The notes: generated from the letters alone by a model not told the origin. Positions 12,104 through 35,489 are shown, numbered from the stretch's first letter. The stretch: DNA of 64,000 nt from a bacterium (GCA_020048285.1 JAIFMU010000009.1:1-64000), one strand, 5' to 3'. Made by a program: numbers and translations.

Positions 12104-13507
12104 TTACACAGAGAGTCGTTTTGCAACGGTTGCCGTGAGTTGTACTCTCGCTTGAGCGGCGAGAAATGGATCGTTCAGAAAGTTGGAATCGCTTAAGATA
12201 TCGAGTTCAGCCAATTGTGTCTCGCTCAACATATCCTCTACTCCAATAGTCGCAGCCACTTCCTTGTGAAGTGCCAGTCGTTCAGGCTCAGCGAGCGAAT
12301 AGTAATAGTTTTGAATCTCTTCCGGTGAAGGGAGTGATCGCTTGTATCCGCGCTGTTCTGCTGTTGTTGCCAGAAGTTCACTAACCTTATGATGTGTGGC
12401 GATCTGGGGACGTGACTCTTCGGGAATTGACCATTCGTTGCGCAGGAATGAGTAAATAAATCCGGCGGGATTGTCGATTTTTTTCCCTTTTGACTGTTCA
12501 GATTTCAAGTGGCGAAGGATTAGTTTCACCTGAGGAAGTGATTCGCGAATCATCGATTCCACTTTGTTGCGTGCAATCCCGAGCGAAAGCAACTCTTGAG
12601 AGATCTCTGATTCCGGTGCGGTGGCAATTACCGTGCGTTTTCGTTCAGCCACTTCGCGATTTTGAAACTCTTGGCTAAATTGATAGCGATATTCAGAACC
12701 TCTTCCTCGCACTTTCACTAGTTCCGCAGAAAGAAGAAAGTCAATCCCGATCAGTTCTTCGTGTGCTTTGCGAAGAGTTTTATCAATATCAGAAATGTAT
12801 TTCGCTTTCAATCCCATAAGTGTTCCCAGTTCGATCACATCAATTGAGAAGAGATCTCCGCGCTTAGCCATGAAAAAGGCCCGCTTATTAAGGTATTGAT
12901 AAAGCCGTTTGGCTACAGGAGATTTCAATTTTTCAAAGAATGTTTTCACCGATACGGGCGAAACATAGCCGTGGGTTCGGTTTGAAAGATAGGTTGAATT
13001 GAATCTTACCATGGAGACATCTTGATGTGATCCGTCGGGATAGGATATAGTCGTCATTTGAAATTCTGTGAGCAAACGGAAATTGTGGTATTTGCCCCGC
13101 TGATTTTTCTCTTTGTCCTGAAGAGTTAGGTGAGCGGTAATTTTAGTGTCCACAATTTTATCAATGGCTTCGCGAATAGCACGATAATCAGCCCCTCCCC
13201 TACTTTTCCATCCGAGCGTTGACAAGATATCTGCAATTGAAAAGTAAAGTGCTCCATCGCCACTGAGTCCTGATTTTTCAAGTTCTAATTCAAGAGCAGT
13301 AAAGACTTCGTACGAAAGTATACCTGGAAGACCTTCACTATTGGTAACATGCCACAGAGCTGTTCCTTCGGGAAGATCTATTTCAATTTTTATTTCACTG
13401 TCGGTGCTATTTTTTTTCCCCAATTTGAAATAAGGAAATTCTACGAAATTTGTTTCACTCCACAGAGCAACGGCATCTTTCTCTTTTTTCTGAATATGAA
13501 GTTCCAA
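12104..13507 (-). CDS. RepA-like replication initiator protein
   Basis: 467 residues. The central part (VRFNSTYLSNRTHGYVSPVS, then SPVAKRLYQYLNKRAFF and FSIDVIELGTLMGL) matches the layout of plasmid initiators of the RPA/RepA type, in which winged-helix domains bind origin repeats. The C-terminal third has helical segments such as PEEIQNYYYSLAEPERLAL. The start is TTG at 13507, preceded by AGAGGAG; the region before it has no better start. The gene lies downstream of parA and parB on the same strand, with 332 bases of repeat-bearing DNA between (13508-13839). This is a classical plasmid replication-partition order. The initiator call is from overall pattern, not one diagnostic motif. Confidence 0.72.
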   Translation of the reverse strand: MELHIQKKEKDAVALWSETNFVEFPYFKLGKKNSTDSEIKIEIDLPEGTALWHVTNSEGLPGILSYEVFTALELELEKSGLSGDGALYFSIADILSTLGWKSRGGADYRAIREAIDKIVDTKITAHLTLQDKEKNQRGKYHNFRLLTEFQMTTISYPDGSHQDVSMVRFNSTYLSNRTHGYVSPVSVKTFFEKLKSPVAKRLYQYLNKRAFFMAKRGDLFSIDVIELGTLMGLKAKYISDIDKTLRKAHEELIGIDFLLSAELVKVRGRGSEYRYQFSQEFQNREVAERKRTVIATAPESEISQELLSLGIARNKVESMIRESLPQVKLILRHLKSEQSKGKKIDNPAGFIYSFLRNEWSIPEESRPQIATHHKVSELLATTAEQRGYKRSLPSPEEIQNYYYSLAEPERLALHKEVAATIGVEDMLSETQLAELDILSDSNFLNDPFLAAQARVQLTATVAKRLSV

Positions 13508-13602
13508 AAAAACAACTCCTCTGTGTTTATTTGATAAATGAATTAGTGATTCTGTGAAATGAGCTATCTTATTTTATTTTTAGATAGTTACAAGCTCTAT
13601 CT

Positions 13603-13838
13603 CGGTTGCTATCCCGCAGTGTTCGATTCTTTTCACAGACCAATTCGTTTTATCTCCCTATGATTTCGTTTCATTTCCCGCTCGTTTTCGGTTGTTATCC
13701 CGAACTTTCTCACTATTGGCTCTATCCGTGAACTCATTGTACTAACTCAACCATACTTGCAGTACTCTCCGATTGGTTTGATCTCAATTCGGTTGTTTCT
13801 ACTGCGAATATTTAACTAATTTTTCGGTTGTTATCCCG
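13603..13838. other. Candidate replication origin or rep operator with CGGTTGYTATCCCG repeats
   Basis: The motif CGGTTG[C/T]TATCCCG occurs in the same orientation at 13603-13616, 13689-13702 and 13825-13838, with a partial copy (CGGTTGTT) at 13790. Each full copy is also a dyad, CGG-N8-CCG, best at 13687-13704 where TTCGG faces CCGAA. The repeats fill the gap between parB and repA, where plasmid iterons or rep operators lie. Spacing is uneven (86 and 136 bases), less regular than classical iterons. Confidence 0.6.
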
Positions 13839-13839
13839 A

Positions 13840-14781
13840 CTAGTTTTGCTCTCGTTTGAGTAACTCTTCTCGTATATAGGCCATGATCTTATCCGAATCA
13901 TTGTATTCTATGTCTTCTGGTAGCTTAAATTCCAGTGTGACCTTGTTGCGTGTACTCACTTCAAAGCGATTCCACTTCCCTCCGTCAATTTTCCACCGTT
14001 TTAATGGTTTTTTGATTTCAGGGATCCTTTGTTGAATCGGACTTTTGTTTATGGTTCGCAGTGAATCGATGGTCATTTCTCCCGACTGAATTGCTGCTAT
14101 AACGGTATGAGCCCAATTCTCGATATCCAGAACCGTCTCCCCTGCCCCTTCTCGCTTTTTACACCCTGCAGCGATTTCGTCGAGATGTCCTCCACTTAAG
14201 CCTTTTAGAACGGCTTCGCGAAGAATTCCCTGAATCGTTTCGGGAAGTGTAAGCAGTTTCAGTATGCGGGAAATTCTAGTTTTTGAAGAACCCACCGCAA
14301 CGGCAATTTCATCAAGAGTCAATGAATCGAGTTTTTGCATATCAGCATAGGCGCGAGCTTTTTCAAAGGCGGTAAAATCTTCGCGCTGCTCATTTTCGAT
14401 TACGGTTAAGAGTCTATGAGTACGGTCGTCGATTTCTGCATCAACCGTCGCTTTCACTGTTTTCATATCGGGAAGAAACCGGCGAATTGCCGTGAGTCGT
14501 CGCCAGCCTGCAATTAGAGTGTAGCTTTCACCGGTGCGTCGCACTTGGATCGGACTGCGCAACCCGTGTTCGCGAATCGATACAGCGAGACTTTCGAGTT
14601 CACTACTATTGAGGCTCTCTTCGTCGCGATACTGAAACGGATTGTCCGCTATTTGATCTACAGGGATTTCGAAAATCTTCTCCCGCGATACCACTCCGGC
14701 ATTTTTTCGAACCGTATCCCCGATGCGTTCTAAATGTGGATCCGCAAGCATAGATCGATCTCGTTTGGCCAGTCCTGCCAT
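13840..14781 (-). CDS. parB: ParB-like partition protein
   Basis: 313 residues. The N-terminal ParB/Srx domain has NPFQYRDEESLN, the CTP-binding region IAGWRRLTAIR, and ENEQREDFTAFEKARAY. A helix-turn-helix follows (SLTLDEIAVAVGSSKTRISRILKLLTLP), which in the family contacts the parS site. The C-terminus is charged. The start at 14781 (MAGLAKRDRS) was chosen because AAGAGA precedes it; a GTG nine codons upstream overlaps the end of parA and is possible. It follows ParA in the usual order, and works with it to segregate a replicon to daughter cells. Confidence 0.85.
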   Translation of the reverse strand: MAGLAKRDRSMLADPHLERIGDTVRKNAGVVSREKIFEIPVDQIADNPFQYRDEESLNSSELESLAVSIREHGLRSPIQVRRTGESYTLIAGWRRLTAIRRFLPDMKTVKATVDAEIDDRTHRLLTVIENEQREDFTAFEKARAYADMQKLDSLTLDEIAVAVGSSKTRISRILKLLTLPETIQGILREAVLKGLSGGHLDEIAAGCKKREGAGETVLDIENWAHTVIAAIQSGEMTIDSLRTINKSPIQQRIPEIKKPLKRWKIDGGKWNRFEVSTRNKVTLEFKLPEDIEYNDSDKIMAYIREELLKREQN

Positions 14782-14797
14782 TAATTTTTCTCTTGTA

Positions 14798-15595
14798 TTA
14801 TTTGACACGGCGCAATACCTCCTCAAAGACTTTTCGGTAGCGAATTGCAATTTTCGTGTTTTGACGACTCACCATGAGTGGCACATTTTCTGAAACTGAA
14901 TACGCCGCGGCAACGGTGCGAGGAATAGCCGGTTCGATAATGAGATTTCCCCAAATCGCTTTCAGATGTTCTTGAGCGACATCAAGGCCCACGGTATTTT
15001 CAACTGCCATGGTCAGAACGATACCGCTTAATTGAGGAAGGCCAAACCCATCGCTGCTATTCTCGGCAATGACAGAACTGATATCTCCCACCATTTTGTC
15101 CACGAGCCCAATTTTATCAATTGAATCCGAAGATGAAGTGGTGACGATAAATACGTGCGTGCTGGCAAATATCGACGCGATATTCACGTGGGAATTTGCT
15201 GGAGGACAGTCGATAACGACAATGTCGAATTGATTGGCACACTCGTGCAAGAGGTCGCGAAACCGTTCAAAGGTGTCTTCCTGTCGTGAAACGAGATGTT
15301 CGACATTTTTCAGCGATGCATTTGCACCAATGATACTCAAGTTTTCAAACGCGGTCGGGCGAATCGTAACACCTTTTTCAGGGTGAATGTTTTCAGCGAG
15401 AAAATCATAGACCGTGTATTCTACATTTTCTCGACCAAAGCCAACATACTCGGTGGAATCACCTTGTGGATCCCAGTCGATCAGAAGTGTTTCCAATCCT
15501 TTCTGCGCACAGTGAGTAGCGAAATTAACCGACACATTGGTTTTTCCTACTCCACCCTTGTAGTTCAGGAACGAAATAACTTTTGGTTCTCTCAT
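14798..15595 (-). CDS. parA: ParA-family partition ATPase
   Basis: 265 residues. The deviant Walker A motif KGGVGKT (lysines 13 and 18) sits near the N-terminus as in ParA/MinD proteins without an N-terminal HTH. The second motif is LLIDWDPQGD and Walker B is IVVIDCPPA. Family members bind DNA non-specifically in the ATP form and pull ParB-parS complexes apart. AGACGGAGATAACAG precedes the ATG. The gene is three bases downstream of the small HTH gene and just upstream of parB, so the three form one transcription unit. Confidence 0.92.
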   Translation of the reverse strand: MREPKVISFLNYKGGVGKTNVSVNFATHCAQKGLETLLIDWDPQGDSTEYVGFGRENVEYTVYDFLAENIHPEKGVTIRPTAFENLSIIGANASLKNVEHLVSRQEDTFERFRDLLHECANQFDIVVIDCPPANSHVNIASIFASTHVFIVTTSSSDSIDKIGLVDKMVGDISSVIAENSSDGFGLPQLSGIVLTMAVENTVGLDVAQEHLKAIWGNLIIEPAIPRTVAAAYSVSENVPLMVSRQNTKIAIRYRKVFEEVLRRVK

Positions 15596-24848: not shown

Positions 24849-25062
24849 GCGATTGGTGCATGTGTCTCTGTGATACGTTCGCATGGAATGGTTATTTCAA
24901 CGTTGCATGGTCACATTCTCTAGGGAAATTGTTCTTCTTTTTGAGTTTTGAGTGAGCTATATTAGTGCACCTGTTTAGGGTAGATTTTTGCATTGGCATC
25001 GGCAGTGAAAAATGTGCTTTGTCGGGAATGCGGTAGTAACTCTAGTAAAGGTTTTCCTAAAA

Positions 25063-25629
25063 ATGATAGCTCGAATAATTGCATGTATTGCCTGTGTAAC
25101 GCTTTCACTCTATGGATTTGAACGCGTTCCGAAGCAGTACTCGTTGGAATTTGGTGGGATCTACGCTCATAAAAACGAAATTTCTCATGAGTCACTTCCG
25201 GGGGCGACGGTTCTGTTTGATTACTCCTGGCAGTTGTCTGGACTTGATGGTACACGGCCTGCATCGTTTATCACCGTTCCTATGGGATATACGGTGTTTT
25301 CCGGCGATTCGAGCCTTTCGATTTTACAGTATGGATGGACAATTCGACATGATCTCACAAAAAGTACGCCTGTAATTCCCTTTCTTGGGTACGGGCTCTT
25401 GTTGAATCAGCTTCATTATGAAGGTGACAAGGGGAGTCGTTTTGGCCATCAGACGCGATTTGATGTTGGAGCGGAGTGGTTCAACGATCGGCCGTTTCAT
25501 CTGTTTGCAAAAGGGGAGTGGAGTATGACTCGTTTTCCCGTAAAGCACCTCGAGAAAAAAAGAATACAATTGCCGAATAGATTATGTTTTCATAGTTATC
25601 AAAAGAGGTTTTCATGGTTGAAATATTAA
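25063..25629 (+). CDS. Small exported beta-rich protein upstream of cydA
   Basis: 188 residues from the ATG at 25063. A signal peptide (MIARIIACIACVTLSLYG) is followed by alternating strands (YSLEFGGIYAHKN, FITVPMGYTVFSG, PFLGYGLLLNQLHYEG, FDVGAEWF) as in small outer-membrane barrels. The last 35 residues are basic and unlike a final strand, and the frame runs 16 bases into cydA. Truncation by a frameshift near 25545 is possible. An upstream in-frame ATG at 25012 has no better ribosome site. Family not recognised. Confidence 0.5.
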   Translation: MIARIIACIACVTLSLYGFERVPKQYSLEFGGIYAHKNEISHESLPGATVLFDYSWQLSGLDGTRPASFITVPMGYTVFSGDSSLSILQYGWTIRHDLTKSTPVIPFLGYGLLLNQLHYEGDKGSRFGHQTRFDVGAEWFNDRPFHLFAKGEWSMTRFPVKHLEKKRIQLPNRLCFHSYQKRFSWLKY

Positions 25630-26768
25630 GTCGCATCCAATTTGCGTTTTCTGTGGGGTTCCATTTCCTGTTCGTACCTCTCAGTATCGGACTCATTTTT
25701 TTGGTCTGTTTGTACGAATACAACTACATGAAAAGCAAAAACCTTCGCTATAAACATCTCTCAGAGTTTTATGGCGATATGTTTGTGATTAACTATGCGT
25801 TCGGCATTGTGACAGGCTTTACCATGAGTTTGCAATTTGGCACAAACTGGTCAGCCTATTCGATTTTCATGGGGGATGTTTTCGGTGCACCGCTCGTTTT
25901 CGAAGCCATTATCGCCTTTTTCCTCGAATCAACGTTCACTGGTCTGTGGATTTTCAAGAAAAATAAAATGTCTAACCGGTTGCGGTTTATCACGGTTCTA
26001 ATGATTCTTATCGGTACAACATTCTCGGCTTTGTGGATTATCACCGCTAATGGATTTATGCAGAATCCGGTCGGGTATTCACTTGCCGCCGATGGAAGTC
26101 GTGTTGTTGTGGAAAATTTCAAAGAAATCCTGCTGAATCCCTATGCATGGTATATGCTTATTCACAACAATACCGCCTGTTTCCTCTTGGGAGCGTACTT
26201 TGTTCTTGGGATAGGAGCGTACCGGTATCTTCGCGTTGACAAAGATAGTGAAGAAGCCGCAACTTTCCGCCTAGGATTTAAGCCTGCAAATATTGTTCTT
26301 GTGGTGATGTCGTTTCTTATGCCGATTATCGGCAACGTGTACTATAATTATATTGTGCCAATCCAGCCAACAAAGATCGATGCGATCAGCGGTGGTTCTC
26401 CTATGGTGACAGTCTCTTTTGCGCTTATGGTGGGATTGGGAACGCTGTTTATTCTCTACTCAACGTATACCCTGGTGTTCTTTAAAAAGTACATGGCTTC
26501 ACCGGTGATGCAGAAAATTTATCTCTGGTCGTTTCCGCTTCCCTATATCGCGATTATGGCTGGGTGGATCGTAGCCGAAGTTGGCCGTCAACCTTATGTC
26601 GTTTATGGGCTTATGCTTACTAAAAATGCCGTGAGCAATGTTCCTGAAATGCAAGTGTGGTTTTCTCTCATGACAATTCTGATTATGTATTTCATTCTTG
26701 CTGTTGCTTGTGTATACTTGATGGTTAAACGAATCAATGCACCACTTTACAAAGAGGAGTTGGTATGA
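25614..26768 (+). CDS. cydA: Cytochrome bd-type oxidase subunit I lacking the Q-loop
   Basis: 384 residues, nine membrane segments. Haem ligands and proton-path residues are present: H17 (FHFLF), E97 and E105 (FEAIIAFFLESTF), H184 (MLIHNN), M272 (ALMVGLG) and E322 in AEVGRQP. Normal subunit I has 440-520 residues because a long Q-loop lies between segments 6 and 7; here only about 15 residues join them (IQPTKIDAISGGSP). K254 matches the conserved lysine, but the glutamate needed for quinol oxidation (E257 in E. coli) is S259. The enzyme could still bind haems and reduce O2 but looks unable to use quinol in the usual way. AAAGAGG precedes the ATG. It overlaps cydB by 4 bases and heads the Rnf gene chain. 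Confidence 0.9.
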   Translation: MVEILSRIQFAFSVGFHFLFVPLSIGLIFLVCLYEYNYMKSKNLRYKHLSEFYGDMFVINYAFGIVTGFTMSLQFGTNWSAYSIFMGDVFGAPLVFEAIIAFFLESTFTGLWIFKKNKMSNRLRFITVLMILIGTTFSALWIITANGFMQNPVGYSLAADGSRVVVENFKEILLNPYAWYMLIHNNTACFLLGAYFVLGIGAYRYLRVDKDSEEAATFRLGFKPANIVLVVMSFLMPIIGNVYYNYIVPIQPTKIDAISGGSPMVTVSFALMVGLGTLFILYSTYTLVFFKKYMASPVMQKIYLWSFPLPYIAIMAGWIVAEVGRQPYVVYGLMLTKNAVSNVPEMQVWFSLMTILIMYFILAVACVYLMVKRINAPLYKEELV

Positions 26769-27772
26769 GTCACGAATTACTCGCGAGTATTTGGTACTTT
26801 ATCCTTGCCCTTGTGTGGGCAATTTACGTAAGTCAGGAACTATTCGTTACCGGCGTGGGTATGCTCAGTTTGAAATACCGCGTCGAAGAGGATTATTTTC
26901 AGAAAATAAATGAGAGTGTTGCCACGTTTTGGGATGGTATACAAGTTTGGCTGATCGTAGCGGTGGGAGGGCTTTTTGCCACGTTCCCTACGGCCTATGG
27001 CTTGACACTTCAGGCGTTGTATATTCCTTTTTATCTACTGCTTATGGCTGTGATTTTTCGAGGAACTTCTATCGAGTTGCTCTATAAGTCTGACGATCGT
27101 CTGTGGCAAAAAGCAGTGAGTAAAGTGTGGGGCGTTTCCAGCCTTGCGATGATTCTTATCGTTGGGATTTACTTGATTAATCTGTTCACTGGCCTTCCGA
27201 TCAAAGATAATTTGATGACTGAAAGTTTCACGGTGATTTTCTCGCGGTCGGCTCAGTTTGGCGGAGCACTTTTTGTGTTGAGTGCCCTTACCATGGGGTA
27301 TTGTTGGATAAAAATGACTCTTGGCAAGGATTTCAAAACGCCGTCAAAGGCGTCAAGTTTGTGGATCAGTGGCGCTTCCATCTTTGCGGTGGCACTTTTG
27401 TTCCTCGCGCTGACCAATAAGAACAACGTGTTTGAAACAGGGTACTTTGCTAAGATACCTGCACTTTGGACGATGCCAATTTTGGCGATGTTGCTCTATG
27501 TTGCACAATTTTTGTTCATGTTGAAAGAACGCTATGTCGGTGCGTTTGTTTCGATCATTTTGGGTATTACTCTTGTGATTTTTACCGGATTTAGTGCGGC
27601 TTTTCCGTATATACTTCCGTCAACAGTTGCTCAAAGTGAAGGCTTATTGATTATCAAAGCCGCTTCTTCACAACATACATTAGAAATTATAACCGGTGTA
27701 ACACTGGTGTTTTTACCTGTTGTTATTGTCTATCAAGGTTGGAAATACCGTAAATTTTGGAGAAAGTTCTAA
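26765..27772 (+). CDS. cydB: Cytochrome bd-type oxidase subunit II
   Basis: 335 residues with about eight to nine membrane segments. The signature WDGIQVWLIVAVGGLFATFP near residue 57 matches the WDGNQVWL motif of subunit II. It forms the heterodimer with subunit I and helps hold the haem-bearing core. The ATG overlaps the cydA stop. It ends four bases before rnfD, so the oxidase and the Rnf genes are one transcription unit. A bd oxidase fused in operon with Rnf genes is not a usual arrangement. Confidence 0.9.
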   Translation: MSHELLASIWYFILALVWAIYVSQELFVTGVGMLSLKYRVEEDYFQKINESVATFWDGIQVWLIVAVGGLFATFPTAYGLTLQALYIPFYLLLMAVIFRGTSIELLYKSDDRLWQKAVSKVWGVSSLAMILIVGIYLINLFTGLPIKDNLMTESFTVIFSRSAQFGGALFVLSALTMGYCWIKMTLGKDFKTPSKASSLWISGASIFAVALLFLALTNKNNVFETGYFAKIPALWTMPILAMLLYVAQFLFMLKERYVGAFVSIILGITLVIFTGFSAAFPYILPSTVAQSEGLLIIKAASSQHTLEIITGVTLVFLPVVIVYQGWKYRKFWRKF

Positions 27773-27775
27773 GCG

Positions 27776-28918
27776 ATGGATATTCGAATTAACAAGGGAC
27801 CGATGGCCTATTTCAAGGGCGATTTAGAGAAAGTTAGCACCGATTTCTATCGCGTGCTCATTGTTCTTACGGCAATTGCAACGGTGTCACAGTTTGCGTA
27901 TGATTATGTTTTGGCAATTAAGGCAGCGTTGATTTTTGTTGTCAGTGTGTTTGTTGCCCGCGAATCGGAGATTTTCTTCGTGACTCAAAAGGCGAGCATC
28001 ATGCGCGATGAAGCAAAAGCAACTCTAAAAACCACAAAACCGGAAGTGACGGCGTTGATTTATGCGCTGATGCTTCCTGTGGGAACGCCTCTATTTGTCG
28101 TGGCAGTTGGATCCTTCGTCAGTGTGTTCATCGGGAAAATGGTGTTTGGTGGTTACTCGTTTAATGTGTTCAATCCGGCTATTGTGGGAAGATTGTTTGT
28201 GGGGATCTCTTGGCCTGCCTTGGTGACCACAAACTTTTCGCCGATTATGGACAATTACCTGTTACAGTTGATTTTTCAAAAAGATTTCACTGCGGTTGCA
28301 CTTTCGCCACTTATGGAACTGCACGCTAACGGAATTGTGTCACTGGCAAATATGCGCCCATTGACGGAATTGTTGTTCACGACAAATCATGGTATGCTGT
28401 TTTCGTTTCCGGTGATCGTCTATCCACTCGTATTGATCTTCTTTGCCGTGCGCAAAACCATTGATTTTCGCCCGCTGGGGATCACGCTAGTCACATCTCT
28501 TATTACACTCGCGGTAATTGCCATTTCATTCAATCAGAGTTTTGAATATCCGCTCTTTCACTTGTTGGCTGGTGGGTATCTCTTTGTGGCGATTCTAATG
28601 ATGACAGATCCGTTCACAAAGCCCTACACGACAATTGGAACCATTGCCTACGCGGCGATTTTTACACTCTCGTTCACCATGGTGCGCTTTCTCGGAAAAG
28701 ATTCTGACGGCGTTTTTTACGCACTGCTCTTTGCAAATCTCTTTGTTCCGCTGATTAATAAAAAAACTGATAAAGCGATCTTTGGTTTCAACCGTCAGAC
28801 TGTGACAACGCTTGTTGTGACTGTTTCGATTCTCGTTGGAACGGGGTTGTTTATCACGAAAATTCTTGAACAGCGAATTGCAAGTAAAGAAGTGACGGTT
28901 CTGTATGGTAAAAATTAG
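27776..28918 (+). CDS. rnfD: Rnf complex subunit D-like membrane protein
   Basis: 380 residues, about ten membrane segments, RnfD/NqrB family (FNVFNPAIVGRLFVGISWPAL, HLLAGGYLFVAILMMTDPFTKP). In other RnfD proteins a threonine in an S-G-A-T-P-L loop carries covalent FMN. The equivalent stretch here reads TAVALSPLMEL, without the GAT core, so covalent flavin is doubtful. The start at 27776 is four bases after the cydB stop. RnfD takes part in electron transfer across the membrane and ion pumping. It overlaps rnfG by 14 bases. Confidence 0.9.
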   Translation: MDIRINKGPMAYFKGDLEKVSTDFYRVLIVLTAIATVSQFAYDYVLAIKAALIFVVSVFVARESEIFFVTQKASIMRDEAKATLKTTKPEVTALIYALMLPVGTPLFVVAVGSFVSVFIGKMVFGGYSFNVFNPAIVGRLFVGISWPALVTTNFSPIMDNYLLQLIFQKDFTAVALSPLMELHANGIVSLANMRPLTELLFTTNHGMLFSFPVIVYPLVLIFFAVRKTIDFRPLGITLVTSLITLAVIAISFNQSFEYPLFHLLAGGYLFVAILMMTDPFTKPYTTIGTIAYAAIFTLSFTMVRFLGKDSDGVFYALLFANLFVPLINKKTDKAIFGFNRQTVTTLVVTVSILVGTGLFITKILEQRIASKEVTVLYGKN

Positions 28919-29444
28919 TTTTAAGTATGGTGTCATTCTCGGCGCCTGTTCGATCATCTGTGCTTCAATTGTTTCCGGTGTGTACGTGATTGTTCAACCC
29001 ATTATAATTGAGCGAACTATCCAAAAGGTGCGGGACAACCTGGACAAGGTTTTTTCGAATACACCTTTCGAATACGAAGAGATCACCGAAACGTCAAAGC
29101 TTGAAAAGTTGCTCGATGTCGATGGGCTGTACAAAGTCAAAATAGCCGGCGATTCTGTCAACTATGTGTATGAAATGAGTCCCGAAGGACGAAATGCGCC
29201 AATACTCTATCTCATCGCTTTTGACATAAAAGGTGCTGTAAAGAAAATCCAGTATGTTCAGATGCGCGAAACAAAGGGGCGTGGGGACAAAATTACCCAT
29301 GAAGAGTATCTCGCCGCTATTTATAAACAGAATGCATCGGCTATGAATGTCGATATTATCACCGGTGCGACCTATTCGACTAAGGCGATGAAACAGAGCA
29401 TTGAAACTGTTTCAAATCACTTGATAACTGAGGTGCTGAAATGA
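28905..29444 (+). CDS. rnfG: Rnf complex subunit G, covalent flavoprotein
   Basis: 179 residues: an N-terminal membrane anchor (ILGACSIICASIVSGVYVIV) and a periplasmic FMN-binding domain. The flavinylation motif is intact at residues 153-158 (TGATYS), so FMN should be attached by ApbE, which is not in the window. RnfG passes electrons between RnfD and RnfA/E in known complexes. The start codon lies inside the rnfD end, and its stop overlaps the rnfE start. Confidence 0.92.
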   Translation: MVKISFKYGVILGACSIICASIVSGVYVIVQPIIIERTIQKVRDNLDKVFSNTPFEYEEITETSKLEKLLDVDGLYKVKIAGDSVNYVYEMSPEGRNAPILYLIAFDIKGAVKKIQYVQMRETKGRGDKITHEEYLAAIYKQNASAMNVDIITGATYSTKAMKQSIETVSNHLITEVLK

Positions 29445-30178
29445 ATAAACTCGCCGCTGATATGTATCGCGGAATCATAAAAGACAATCCCACATTTGTC
29501 CTTTTCCTCGGGCTCTGCCCAACTTTGGCACTGACCAATAATCTTACCAATGCGGTGGGTATGGGGTTGAGTGTTGTGGTTGTTCTGGCGATTACGAACG
29601 CTTTGATTTCCATGGTTCGCAAAATCGTTCCTGCAGACATTCGCATTCCTGTCTATATCACGATCATCGCCTCGGTGGTGACGGTGATGGGAATGCTCAT
29701 GGAAGCGTATATGCCTGCTTTATTTGAAAGTATGGGAATCTATTTCCCGCTTATTGTGGTGAACTGTATCATTCTTGGTCGTGCAGAATCATTTGCCGCA
29801 GAAAATGGCGTGGTGGATTCGTTCTTTGATGGAGTATCCAGCGGGCTAGGGTTTTTACTCGGACTATCAGTGTTGGGATTCTCCCGCGAACTGATAGGCA
29901 CCGGCGCAGTGGATATGCTGAAATTTCGCATTCTCGATGCAAATCATGCGCCCACCATTTTTGTGGAATCTTCCGGCGCATTTCTCATGTTCGGATTGAT
30001 CGCTTGGATGATGAACACGATTAAACTCAACAAAGAGAAAAAAGAGAAAGAGATCGCCACTGCAGCAAAGGCCGCCGCGAAAGCTGCCGCCGAAGCAAAA
30101 AAAGCTGAAGAGGAAAAACTGTCTATAGCATCCGCTCAGCCCGAATCAACTCAACCTGAAGGAGATCTTCGTGGATAG
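29441..30178 (+). CDS. rnfE: Rnf complex subunit E
   Basis: 245 residues, six membrane segments of the RnfA/E/NqrD/E family. It contains TFVLFLGLCPTLALTNN, with the cysteine that helps hold an FeS centre in the membrane, and PLIVVNCIILGRAESFA. After the last segment it has an extra Lys/Ala/Glu-rich coiled tail of about 45 residues (EKEIATAAKAAAKAAAEAKK) not typical for RnfE. The ATG overlaps the rnfG stop by four bases, and rnfA starts within its last codons. Confidence 0.92.
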   Translation: MNKLAADMYRGIIKDNPTFVLFLGLCPTLALTNNLTNAVGMGLSVVVVLAITNALISMVRKIVPADIRIPVYITIIASVVTVMGMLMEAYMPALFESMGIYFPLIVVNCIILGRAESFAAENGVVDSFFDGVSSGLGFLLGLSVLGFSRELIGTGAVDMLKFRILDANHAPTIFVESSGAFLMFGLIAWMMNTIKLNKEKKEKEIATAAKAAAKAAAEAKKAEEEKLSIASAQPESTQPEGDLRG

Positions 30179-30776
30179 TGTTATTTCAATCTTGACGATC
30201 GCTTTTAGCGCGTTTCTGATTCAAAATATCGTTCTGACTCAGTTCCTTGGACTCTGTTCATTTTTCGGTGTGGGGAACAAAGAGGATTCTGCGCTGGGTA
30301 TGGGTCTTGCGGTTACATTCGTGATCACACTTTCTGCGGTTGCGACCTACGCACTCTACATCTTTGTGCTTGTACCGTTCAAGTTGGAGTTTCTCTCCAC
30401 GATTTCATTTATTCTCGTAATCAGTGGACTTGTTCAGTTTGTTGAAATGGTGATTAAAAAATATTCACCGGGACTCTACCAGAGCCTGGGAGTGTACCTT
30501 CCACTTATCACAACGAACTGTGCCGTTCTTGGTGTGGCTTTGTTGAACATTGACAAGAGCAATAGCGAACTCTCTTTGGGTATGAATTTTCTGATCATGA
30601 TAGTGTTCAGTTTTTTCACCTCTTCTGGATACGCTTTTGTTATTTACGTCTTTGCGCTGATTCGCGAACAAATTGCGAAGGCGCCGATTCATGCGGGACT
30701 AAAAGGGGTGCCGATCGCTTTGATCACTGCTTTTGTCATGGCCATGGCGTTTAACGGTTTTGTGGGGATGTTCTAA
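30171..30776 (+). CDS. rnfA: Rnf complex subunit A
   Basis: 201 residues, six membrane segments, paralogue of RnfE. IQNIVLTQFLGLCSFFGVGN and PLITTNCAVLGVALLN carry the conserved cysteines for the membrane FeS cluster shared with RnfE. The start is GTG at 30171, preceded by AAGGAGATCTTC, which decides it. The stop codon TAATG overlaps the start of the next small gene. Confidence 0.93.
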   Translation: MDSVISILTIAFSAFLIQNIVLTQFLGLCSFFGVGNKEDSALGMGLAVTFVITLSAVATYALYIFVLVPFKLEFLSTISFILVISGLVQFVEMVIKKYSPGLYQSLGVYLPLITTNCAVLGVALLNIDKSNSELSLGMNFLIMIVFSFFTSSGYAFVIYVFALIREQIAKAPIHAGLKGVPIALITAFVMAMAFNGFVGMF

Positions 30777-30958
30777 TGAGAATTGCTATAGCCATTATAG
30801 TCATCGTTGGATTGATTGCATTCTATTTCACCATGTGGAAATTGAATCGCAAACAGCAGTTACCGGAAGAGTTCAAAGGATCATTGCCAAAATGCGGTTC
30901 ATGTAGCGATTCACAATGTGCGCTCAGTGATTCGAAGGGAGATACTGAAAATGAATAG
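30776..30958 (+). CDS. Small membrane protein with Cys-x2-Cys-x4-Cys tail in the rnf operon
   Basis: 60 residues. Residues 2-21 are one membrane helix. The rest is hydrophilic with C40, C43 and C48 in KCGSCSDSQC, a spacing able to bind metal or take part in redox work; it resembles small Cys-rich membrane proteins. It overlaps rnfA by one base and rnfB by eight, so it is translationally coupled and probably a real part of the complex. No family name is claimed. It might stand in for a lost FeS domain. Confidence 0.75.
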   Translation: MRIAIAIIVIVGLIAFYFTMWKLNRKQQLPEEFKGSLPKCGSCSDSQCALSDSKGDTENE

Positions 30959-31250
30959 TCTTGTTCTGTCAGCGATTGCCGTGATCGGTATTGTCGGGAT
31001 TACTATTGGCGTTTTGTTGGGAATCGCCTCGATTGTGCTCGCTGTAAAAGTGGATGAACGCGTTCAGAAGATATACGACTCACTTCCTCATTTCAACTGC
31101 GGAGCCTGTGGATTTCCCGGATGTCAAGGAATGGCCGAGGGTCTTATCAAGTCGGCTGTTCCAATCAGCAATTGTAAACCTTCTAAGCCAGATCGCCGAC
31201 AGCTCATTAAAGAAATTTTAGATGAGTATGGAATTGAGAATAAACTGTAG
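30951..31250 (+). CDS. rnfB: Truncated RnfB: membrane helix plus first FeS domain only
   Basis: 99 residues, against roughly 190 or more in usual RnfB. Residues 5-33 form the membrane helix, and the 4Fe-4S domain follows with C50, C53, C58 and C75 (HFNCGACGFPGCQG, then ISNCKPS). The ferredoxin-type domains that take electrons from ferredoxin are missing, and the frame ends cleanly with a terminator 26 bases later. ATG at 30951 is preceded by AAGGGAG. No rnfC is in the window. The electron entry of this complex must therefore differ from that of normal Rnf, or come from a subunit encoded elsewhere. Confidence 0.88.
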   Translation: MNSLVLSAIAVIGIVGITIGVLLGIASIVLAVKVDERVQKIYDSLPHFNCGACGFPGCQGMAEGLIKSAVPISNCKPSKPDRRQLIKEILDEYGIENKL

Positions 31251-31275: not shown

Positions 31276-31309
31276 AATGCCGGAACTCCTAGGAGTTCCG
31301 GCATTGTTT
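31276..31309 (+). terminator. Terminator of the cyd-rnf operon
   Basis: A 30-base perfect palindrome with arms AATGCCGGAACTCCT and AGGAGTTCCGGCATT, followed by GTTTTG. The same CCGGAACTCCTAGGA core recurs in the hairpin at 32412-32437. Confidence 0.85.
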
Positions 31310-34395: not shown

Positions 34396-35489
34396 CTCTA
34401 AAGTCGGTTAATTTGTAGACATTGTATACGCAGTATCAGGGGCACGGAAAAATGAAGCAACTTTATCTTTTGCACGCTGAAGTTTCATCAGACAACTTCG
34501 AGCAAATTTTGTCAAATCATCCTTCGTAGAAATCGATCTTTTTCCGATCTCTCGTTTCACATGGCTCCAAACCCATTCGTCAGGATTGAGTTTCGGTGAA
34601 TATGGAGGAAGAAATACCAGTTCAATTTTCTCTTTGTGTTTTTCGATAAATGCTTTTGTTTTCTTTGACCTATGCATTGGATGCCCATCAACGATGAGGA
34701 TAATTTTCTTTTTTTGACCTACCAGAAGTCGGCGTAAGAACTCAATAAACAATTCTGTCGTTCCGTTCTTTGCTGTGACCATGAACCGTAACTCTCCATA
34801 ACTGTTTACTGCCGATACTAGATTAATTCTAAATCGTGAACCAGTTGATGTCACAACGGGACGAGTGCCTTTTAATCCCCATGTTTTACCTGAGTGATGA
34901 TCAGAGCGTAAGCCTGACTCATCTTGAAACCAGATTTCTGCATTTTCTTTCTTCGCCCGTGCTACTAGCGCCGGATATTCAACATCACGCCAGTTTTGTA
35001 CCAAAACAGGATCTTGCTTGTCTGCAGCATACTTGGGCTTCTGAAAACTGAAACCAAGCTTTTTGAGTAGTTCACCAGTTTGTGTTTTCCCAAGGTCAAC
35101 ATTAAACTCCTTCTTTATAAGAACTTGAATCATGGATCGTGTCCAAAGTGCAAATTCAAACTTCAACTGCAAAGGCGTCTTATCTTTTAATATTTCAAGG
35201 AGTTTTACACCTTGCTCAGGACTGATTTTTGGTTCGCGCCCCGGTGCTGGTTTACGACGAAGACCTTCTTCGCCATAGGCTACGTATGTGGCTAACCATT
35301 TGTAAATAGTCGAACGGTTAAGCCCAAGACTGTCAACGACAAGTTCAGGACTGGCACCACCTTCGACCTGTTTCACTGCGCGAATCCGAATTTCGGCTTG
35401 CGCTTCTCTGCTGATTTTTCTTCCATCTATTTTCATGCCACGAAAATAATTCATGCATAAAAATGTTGCAATATTATCCGACTTTAGAG
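34396..35489 (-). mobile_element. Complete IS630-family insertion sequence
   Basis: About 1.09 kb. The ends are CTCTAAAGTCGG at 34396 and its reverse complement CCGACTTTAGAG ending at 35489. TA lies on both flanks (34394-34395 and 35490-35491), the target duplication expected of IS630/mariner elements. The transposase frame inside is intact, so the copy may be active and recent. Confidence 0.9.
34408..35454 (-). CDS. IS630-family transposase
   Basis: 348 residues, full length in one frame. The N-terminal HTH (AKQVEGGASPELVV region, then SLGLNRSTIYKWLATY) is of the winged-helix type found in IS630. The DDE catalytic region has FQDESGL, ILIVDGHPMHRSK and LPPYSPKLNPDEWVWSHVK. It cuts the element ends and inserts at TA. 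The inverted repeats at 34396 and 35489 bracket the gene closely. No frameshift is seen. Confidence 0.92.
   Translation of the reverse strand: MNYFRGMKIDGRKISREAQAEIRIRAVKQVEGGASPELVVDSLGLNRSTIYKWLATYVAYGEEGLRRKPAPGREPKISPEQGVKLLEILKDKTPLQLKFEFALWTRSMIQVLIKKEFNVDLGKTQTGELLKKLGFSFQKPKYAADKQDPVLVQNWRDVEYPALVARAKKENAEIWFQDESGLRSDHHSGKTWGLKGTRPVVTSTGSRFRINLVSAVNSYGELRFMVTAKNGTTELFIEFLRRLLVGQKKKIILIVDGHPMHRSKKTKAFIEKHKEKIELVFLPPYSPKLNPDEWVWSHVKREIGKRSISTKDDLTKFARSCLMKLQRAKDKVASFFRAPDTAYTMSTN

Follow-up and report, generated by a model that had tools for sequence, protein, structure and literature searches.

This locus raises the question of how a cytochrome bd oxidase obtains its electrons when the region that binds quinol has been lost and the enzyme is encoded together with part of an Rnf complex. 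Quinol-type bd oxidases draw on the quinone pool; for bd types that have no quinol site, cytochrome c is the presumed donor. In the bacterial DNA analyzed here (a stretch of 64,000 nucleotides, termed the window below) eight plus-strand genes occupy positions 25614–31250, in the order cydA, cydB, rnfD, rnfG, rnfE, rnfA, a gene for a 60-aa Cys protein and rnfB (Table 1). All eight frames are intact and consecutive genes overlap or abut, with intergenic spacings of −4, +3, −14, −4, −8, −1 and −8 bases in operon order. Seven of the eight gave Pfam or NCBIfam matches well beyond chance, the exception being the 60-aa protein, for which these profile searches found no family. The best start for RnfB is at 30951. 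Downstream lies a 13-bp hairpin, followed on its 3′ side by a short T-rich stretch, with a fold z-score of −4.5 that was equaled by none of 200 shuffled sequences. The frames, family matches, spacings and hairpin bear out the chain of overlapping or touching genes with a single terminator that was proposed in a preliminary description of this DNA.

Table 1. Features of the cyd–rnf operon, in window coordinates.
Feature	Coordinates	Strand	Description	Basis
cydA	25614..26768	+	cytochrome bd oxidase subunit I, 384 aa	PF01654; alignment to E. coli CydA
cydB	26765..27772	+	cytochrome bd oxidase subunit II, 335 aa	PF02322, TIGR00203 above cut-off; PDB matches
rnfD	27776..28918	+	membrane subunit, 380 aa, without covalent-FMN motif	PF03116; matches C. 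tetanomorphum RnfD 7zc6
rnfG	28905..29444	+	predicted membrane-anchored extracytoplasmic FMN-binding subunit	PF04205; alignment
rnfE	29441..30178	+	membrane subunit; in-membrane C26, C109	PF02508, TIGR01948 above cut-off
rnfA	30171..30776	+	membrane subunit, GTG start; in-membrane C29, C117	PF02508; best to TIGR01943
60-aa protein	30776..30958	+	single helix, C-x2-C-x4-C	ORF; no family match
short rnfB	30951..31250	+	membrane helix and one [4Fe-4S] motif, about 99 aa	PF04060
terminator-like hairpin	31276..31305	+	intrinsic type, 13 pairs, then GTTTTG	fold statistics

The QP motif and the methionine ligand of haem b558 are separated by 19 residues in the window CydA, compared with 74–144 in the quinol-type CydAs compared, and HMMER alignments to E. 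coli CydA bypass the Q-loop, which was thus rightly described as missing. Equivalents of the haem ligands are retained (H17, H184 and M272), as are E97, E105, E322 and R325, the counterparts of E. coli Glu99, Glu107, Glu445 and the GRQP arginine. His19, His186, Met393 and Glu445/GRQP are conserved in the window protein and in all six of the Mycoplasmatota relatives described below. According to PMC13189123, the quinol of cytochrome bd sits 6.7 Å from the b558 iron, under the Q-loop at the outer face, and the pocket for quinol or inhibitor next to b558 is lined or braced by Glu257 and Arg391. The window CydA has S259 and A270 at these two positions, and in our residue table of 15 CydA proteins both equivalents are lost in every Rnf-linked CydA. 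Lys252 of the QP-x-K motif is conserved in all, so that some remnant of the quinol site persists; this is a point against a quinone-independent reading. Of the quinol-type (qOR) features, therefore, the Q-loop is deleted, Glu257 is replaced and Lys252 alone is kept. An AlphaFold model of the window CydA has pLDDT 90.8 and pTM 0.90, and its top match in the PDB is the CydA of E. coli bd-II with TM 0.92 (solved CydA chains fall in the range 0.83–0.92). Judged from so confident a model, the window CydA is an intact bd-family subunit that lacks the quinol lid.

Homologues of RnfA, RnfE, RnfG and RnfD are all encoded in the operon. The four in-membrane cysteines of RnfA and RnfE are retained, and RnfG keeps the flavinylation motif D-IITGATYS, with D150, G154 and A155 invariant in the alignment. 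The window RnfB has the [4Fe-4S] motif NCGACGFPGC...C, lacks the C-terminal polyferredoxin domain and aligns solely with the N-terminal part of solved RnfB. Across the cyd–rnf operons the RnfA/E cysteines, the RnfB cysteines and the RnfG flavin motif are retained in five of five, and the covalent-FMN motif of RnfD, present in the comparison RnfD proteins, is missing in the same number. A structural model of RnfD was of moderate confidence (pLDDT 71) and was left out of the analysis. As the preliminary description stated, RnfC is missing: rnfC was found neither in the window operon nor in four Mycoplasmatota operons, and the window genome, in an assembly that is 70% complete, gave no RnfC-like match above cut-off. 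Its statement that both entry points for electrons are missing holds for the Q-loop and RnfC but is too strong for RnfB, which still has the anchor in the membrane and the first of the [4Fe-4S] motifs. RnfB is indeed short, with one FeS domain, but we rejected its length as a marker of a link to the oxidase, as a short RnfB is widespread among Mycoplasmatota and occurs in some of their clusters that contain rnfC.

The same arrangement recurs outside the phylum of the window organism, which is of Fibrobacterota type. Among 168 genomes searched within that phylum, including one from the same genus that is 96% complete, no other has a CydA of this type, and querying genome contigs with the window CydA in a close-peptide search turned up no relatives. 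We then have the result of a DNA pattern based on the shortened loop (MQxP, Met-x-G at b558 and GW..E.GRxP at fixed spacing), applied to about 85,000 species genomes. Fifteen hits were obtained, of which L063 is a true relative and L061, from Treponema, is a related CydA; L069 gave no tblastn match, and the remaining hits are other CydA proteins. The pattern matched a Q-less CydA, 47% identical, in the Tenericutes assembly JAFLJX010000015.1, whose contig carries cydA-cydB-rnfD-rnfG-rnfE-rnfA-rnfB without rnfC. It recovered one of the four full-operon relatives, so the number of relatives is a lower bound.

A CydA of this type was found at E ≤ 1e−30 in six of 392 genomes of Mycoplasmatota, a label that for the other relatives is the phylum assigned to G169. 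Four of the six have adjacent rnf genes in the same order, overlapping and without rnfC, and their CydA proteins are 47–52% identical; a search for cydAB followed by rnfDGEA without rnfC, suggested at the outset, has therefore succeeded. The gene for the 60-aa Cys protein was not found between rnfA and rnfB in these operons, which lie on large contigs. The fifth genome, G385, has its rnf genes in the same cluster, a one-way array of ~13 kb that begins with rnfD-G-E-A and a short B, continues with nuoE- and nuoF-like genes, two hydrogenase-like FeS genes, an RnfC-like and a ferric-reductase-like gene, and then reaches a Q-less cydAB. The sixth, G382, has a Q-less cydAB without adjacent rnf, and its CydA is the sole relative in which Glu257 is retained. 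Since the Treponema L061 CydA likewise has no adjacent rnf, Rnf need not be the sole possible partner of these oxidases. In three of the four Mycoplasmatota operons and in G385 (loci L101–L104) cydA is immediately preceded by a gene for a ferric-reductase-like haem protein, which may act in those bacteria as the electron donor or as an alternative one. ApbE was found in all six of the Mycoplasmatota genomes.

The Q-less CydA proteins form one clade with support of 100/100, and the Cyd-linked RnfD, RnfE and RnfA form a group that is moderately supported (86/91). We could reject an origin by local duplication of the Rnf already in the genome, the p-AU for joining the Rnf of the window operon with the ordinary Rnf being 0.00017. 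From these sequence comparisons the cyd–rnf association looks like an old, transferred one, and not a local accident.

The prenyltransferases that serve the synthesis of ubiquinone and menaquinone belong to the UbiA family. No member was found in G169, G196, G270, G294 or G385, and the same search was positive in 14 of 14 control genomes. Because no UbiA-type prenyltransferase is detectable, these five Mycoplasmatota probably make no quinone, as far as gene content can indicate. G382, without linked rnf, has a UbiA protein. The window genome encodes two proteins of the family, neither of which passes any MenA cut-off, and with these two proteins in a 70%-complete assembly quinone synthesis is possible in that organism.

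The surroundings of the operon bear on its origin. A plasmid-type replication initiator, ParB and ParA are encoded at window positions 12104–15595, an IS630 transposase lies 3 kb from the operon, and no tRNA gene was found in the window. We suggest that the operon is plasmid-borne and horizontally acquired, which would explain why it is missing from the sister genome. A circular contig received no support, as the contig ends do not overlap. We judged contamination of the assembly to be unlikely, given that the contig carries a Fibrobacter-type TIGR02147 gene, that the decarboxylase gene neighboring the operon has a 64% identical match in the same family, and that the G+C content is similar. 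Elsewhere in the genome there is a second, ordinary Rnf cluster on contig C193, encoding an RnfB of 342 aa, with the contig end falling inside rnfD. Of the separate machinery that could do the work of each half independently, an ordinary Rnf cluster whose RnfB is full-length thus exists, but neither a second cydA nor an RnfC-like match over the cut-off was found in this fragmented, 70%-complete assembly. The preliminary description had advised looking elsewhere in the genome for apbE and rnfC, and neither was found. ApbE was also not found in the sister genome, which belongs to the same genus and is 96% complete, so that flavinylation of RnfG is unaccounted for.

We consider it probable that the operon encodes a quinone-independent cytochrome bd oxygen reductase that receives its electrons from the outward half of Rnf. 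In the Rnf complex RnfB passes electrons on to the [2Fe-2S] cluster of RnfA/E, from which they reach the FMN of RnfG at the outer face and then return through RnfD and RnfC to NAD+ (PMC12174285). In the window operon a low-potential cytosolic donor (ferredoxin, flavodoxin or an NADH-dehydrogenase module) would reduce the [4Fe-4S] cluster of RnfB, the [2Fe-2S] cluster that RnfA and RnfE share would carry the electron across the membrane, and the FMN of RnfG would receive it at the outer face. The return path to NAD+ appears to be cut, as the FMN site of RnfD and RnfC are both missing. Instead RnfG would pass the electron to haem b558 of CydA, near the outer face where quinol normally binds; we propose this transfer because removal of the Q-loop would expose b558 right where RnfG delivers electrons. 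From b558 the path would continue through b595 and haem d to O2. RnfD probably serves either for docking, as a structural partner, or as a path for ions. For A. woodii it has been proposed that the RnfA/E switch is coupled to the movement of ions (PMC12174285); if that is so here, the half complex could still pump ions. The composition of the G385 cluster suggests that the donor to the short RnfB is an NADH-dehydrogenase-like module or ferredoxin. The transfer from RnfG to CydA, the direction of flow, a physical complex and ion pumping by RnfA/E are what we infer from these genes. The fullest version, a supercomplex in which half of Rnf pumps ions and drives electrons into cytochrome bd with neither quinone nor cytochrome c, horizontally transferred between the wall-less Mycoplasmatota and Fibrobacterota, is more tentative, and we would put it a little short of an even chance.

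The preliminary description had already proposed that Rnf feeds the oxidase without quinone. Comparison lends this idea strong support through the presence of the operon in another phylum, the loss of quinol-site residues and of the RnfD flavin motif with the outward Rnf path and the haem ligands retained, and Mycoplasmatota hosts in which no UbiA protein was found. Two details of that description are to be corrected: the window genome also has an ordinary Rnf cluster, and the short RnfB is not specific to the operon. In NQR, homologues of the NqrB/RnfD type function with quinone (PMC12174285). Just as NQR reduces ubiquinone, the Rnf-like part might reduce quinone or another small lipid-soluble carrier that the bd oxidase still oxidizes at a remodeled site lacking the Q-loop, which would make the operon a compact quinone loop. 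The conserved Lys252 equivalent, the UbiA-family proteins of the window genome and the combination in G382 of a UbiA protein with a Q-less, Glu257-bearing CydA are all consistent with such a loop. We nevertheless find it quite unlikely, because the Q-loop, Glu257 and Arg391 are lost together, the operon has no subunit of the RnfC/NqrA type, the flavin site of RnfD is gone, and no UbiA-family protein was found in the four full-operon Mycoplasmatota genomes.

The two halves might also be transcribed together and work separately, Rnf reducing some other acceptor at the outer face and CydAB taking electrons from a different donor, for instance a soluble reductase or the ferric-reductase-like haem protein. 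The operon would then reflect common control of both halves by oxygen, and both the ferric-reductase-like genes of L101, L102, L103 and L104 and the unaccompanied cydAB of G382 could be read in this way. Yet gene order and overlaps are maintained across two phyla, no ferric-reductase-like gene was found beside the window operon, and the parallel loss of the quinol site, RnfC and the RnfD flavin fits a single rerouted path, so we regard separate work as unlikely. That the operon is a functionless degenerate or an artefact of assembly is highly improbable. The assembly is fragmented and no relative in its own phylum carries the operon, but the eight frames are intact with conserved cofactor residues, the same operon occurs independently on large contigs of other genomes across phyla, and the neighboring decarboxylase has its close match within the family.

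Direct feeding of the oxidase by Rnf, our preferred reading, can be set beside known systems. Like E. coli CydAB, a qOR1 quinol oxidase, the window enzyme has the bd fold (TM 0.92), three haem sites, the catalytic glutamate, GRQP and a CydB partner; it differs in the deleted Q-loop, the loss of the Glu257 and Arg391 equivalents and the co-encoded Rnf genes. The OR-N and OR-C cytochromes bd are also family members that are not quinol oxidases, and OR-N is thought to receive electrons from cytochrome c (PMC13189123, PMC10839748). Compared with the published summaries of these types, the window CydA is distinguished by its b558 ligands and its close alignment to the E. coli protein, and the available text of the same two sources describes no link of OR-N or OR-C to Rnf. 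The operon shares with Rnf proper (ferredoxin:NAD+ oxidoreductase, RnfABCDGE) the cofactor residues of the outward arm in RnfA, E, G and B, and departs from it in lacking RnfC, the RnfD FMN motif and the RnfB polyferredoxin domain and in co-encoding an oxidase. In the NQR/RNF-like, NapH-like (Nos, Pce) and MsrQ-like conduits cytosolic electrons likewise reach a flavinylated protein at the outer face and then a partner enzyme (eLife 66878). The NQR/RNF-like examples, however, fuse an RnfD/NqrB domain to an NqrF-type one, which is the other arm, and have no bd oxidase; neither CydA nor cytochrome bd occurs in that paper. A search of the open full-text literature found no published description of a cyd–rnf operon. 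From its sequence the operon appears to comprise known parts, joined in a manner that we have not found described there.

A bd oxidase thus seems to be connected to a transmembrane conduit based on flavin, in lineages seemingly unable to make quinone. If this is true, one half of Rnf can be separated from the other and put to new use in feeding electrons to a partner, the use or removal of O2 by quinone-less fermenters is accounted for, and these enzymes offer a natural test of how haem b558 receives electrons without quinol. Models in the literature in which bacteria of this kind are given a quinone pool would then be corrected. In genomes of Izemoplasma-type Mycoplasmatota, Rnf, 'complex I' and cytochrome bd have been reported side by side (PMC8397711, PMC7761423), with a shared quinone pool assumed for the electron chain (PMC8397711) and farnesyl-PP synthase reported missing (PMC7761423). 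The bd oxidases encoded in such genomes may likewise be linked to Rnf and work without quinone.

The contig that carries the cyd-rnf operon contains the genes of an RPA/Rep3 plasmid-type initiator, ParB and ParA. Because these cluster together and no tRNA genes were found within the 64-kb window, the data suggest that the contig is a plasmid or similar replicon, although comparison of its ends revealed no overlap. The IS630 transposase is consistent with mobility. The features discussed are collected in the table.

Location of features in the window and in stretches of other contigs and genomes (L-numbers)
Feature	Location	Remark
RPA/Rep3 plasmid-type replication initiator, ParB, ParA	window 12104-15595	grouped
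205-aa reading frame	window 25012-25629	no known family; shares 16 bases with cydA start
IS630 transposase	window 34408-35454	3 kb downstream of operon
Treponema sp. UBA12037 CydAB	L061 2161-4334	related to this CydAB family
Actinobacterial CydA-like proteins (Nocardiopsis, Jiangella)	L064 2388-4055, L065 584-1765	
One-way cluster of G385 (Mycoplasmatota)	L116 449-10259 and L104 6929-9939	
RnfG-like protein, 639 aa	L093 3457-5376	ordinary Rnf cluster of G169 (Tenericutes)
rnfE and rnfA in single frame	L032 3797-4930	ordinary Rnf cluster of window genome

The G385 cluster combines rnf genes and Q-less cydAB with NADH-dehydrogenase and hydrogenase-like FeS genes, an RnfC-like gene and a ferric-reductase-like gene. 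One of its hydrogenase-like proteins seems to lack some cysteines of the H-cluster.

The Treponema CydA shows its relation to this family at 56% over the first half of the protein. Unknown bases fill the middle of its gene, which leaves the length of its loop uncertain. A gene for a Fur-like regulator adjoins this cydAB, and the sequence stretch examined contains no rnf genes. The Q-loop region is also very short in the actinobacterial CydA-like proteins, and that of L065 has lost the equivalent of Met393, a haem b558 ligand.

The RnfG proteins of the window genome have intact flavin motifs, yet no ApbE flavin transferase was found on searching that whole genome, nor in the whole genome of a congener, which is 96% complete.

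The RnfG-like protein of G169 contains several FMN-binding repeats, and the fusion of rnfE and rnfA in the window genome is probably a frameshift or an assembly error.
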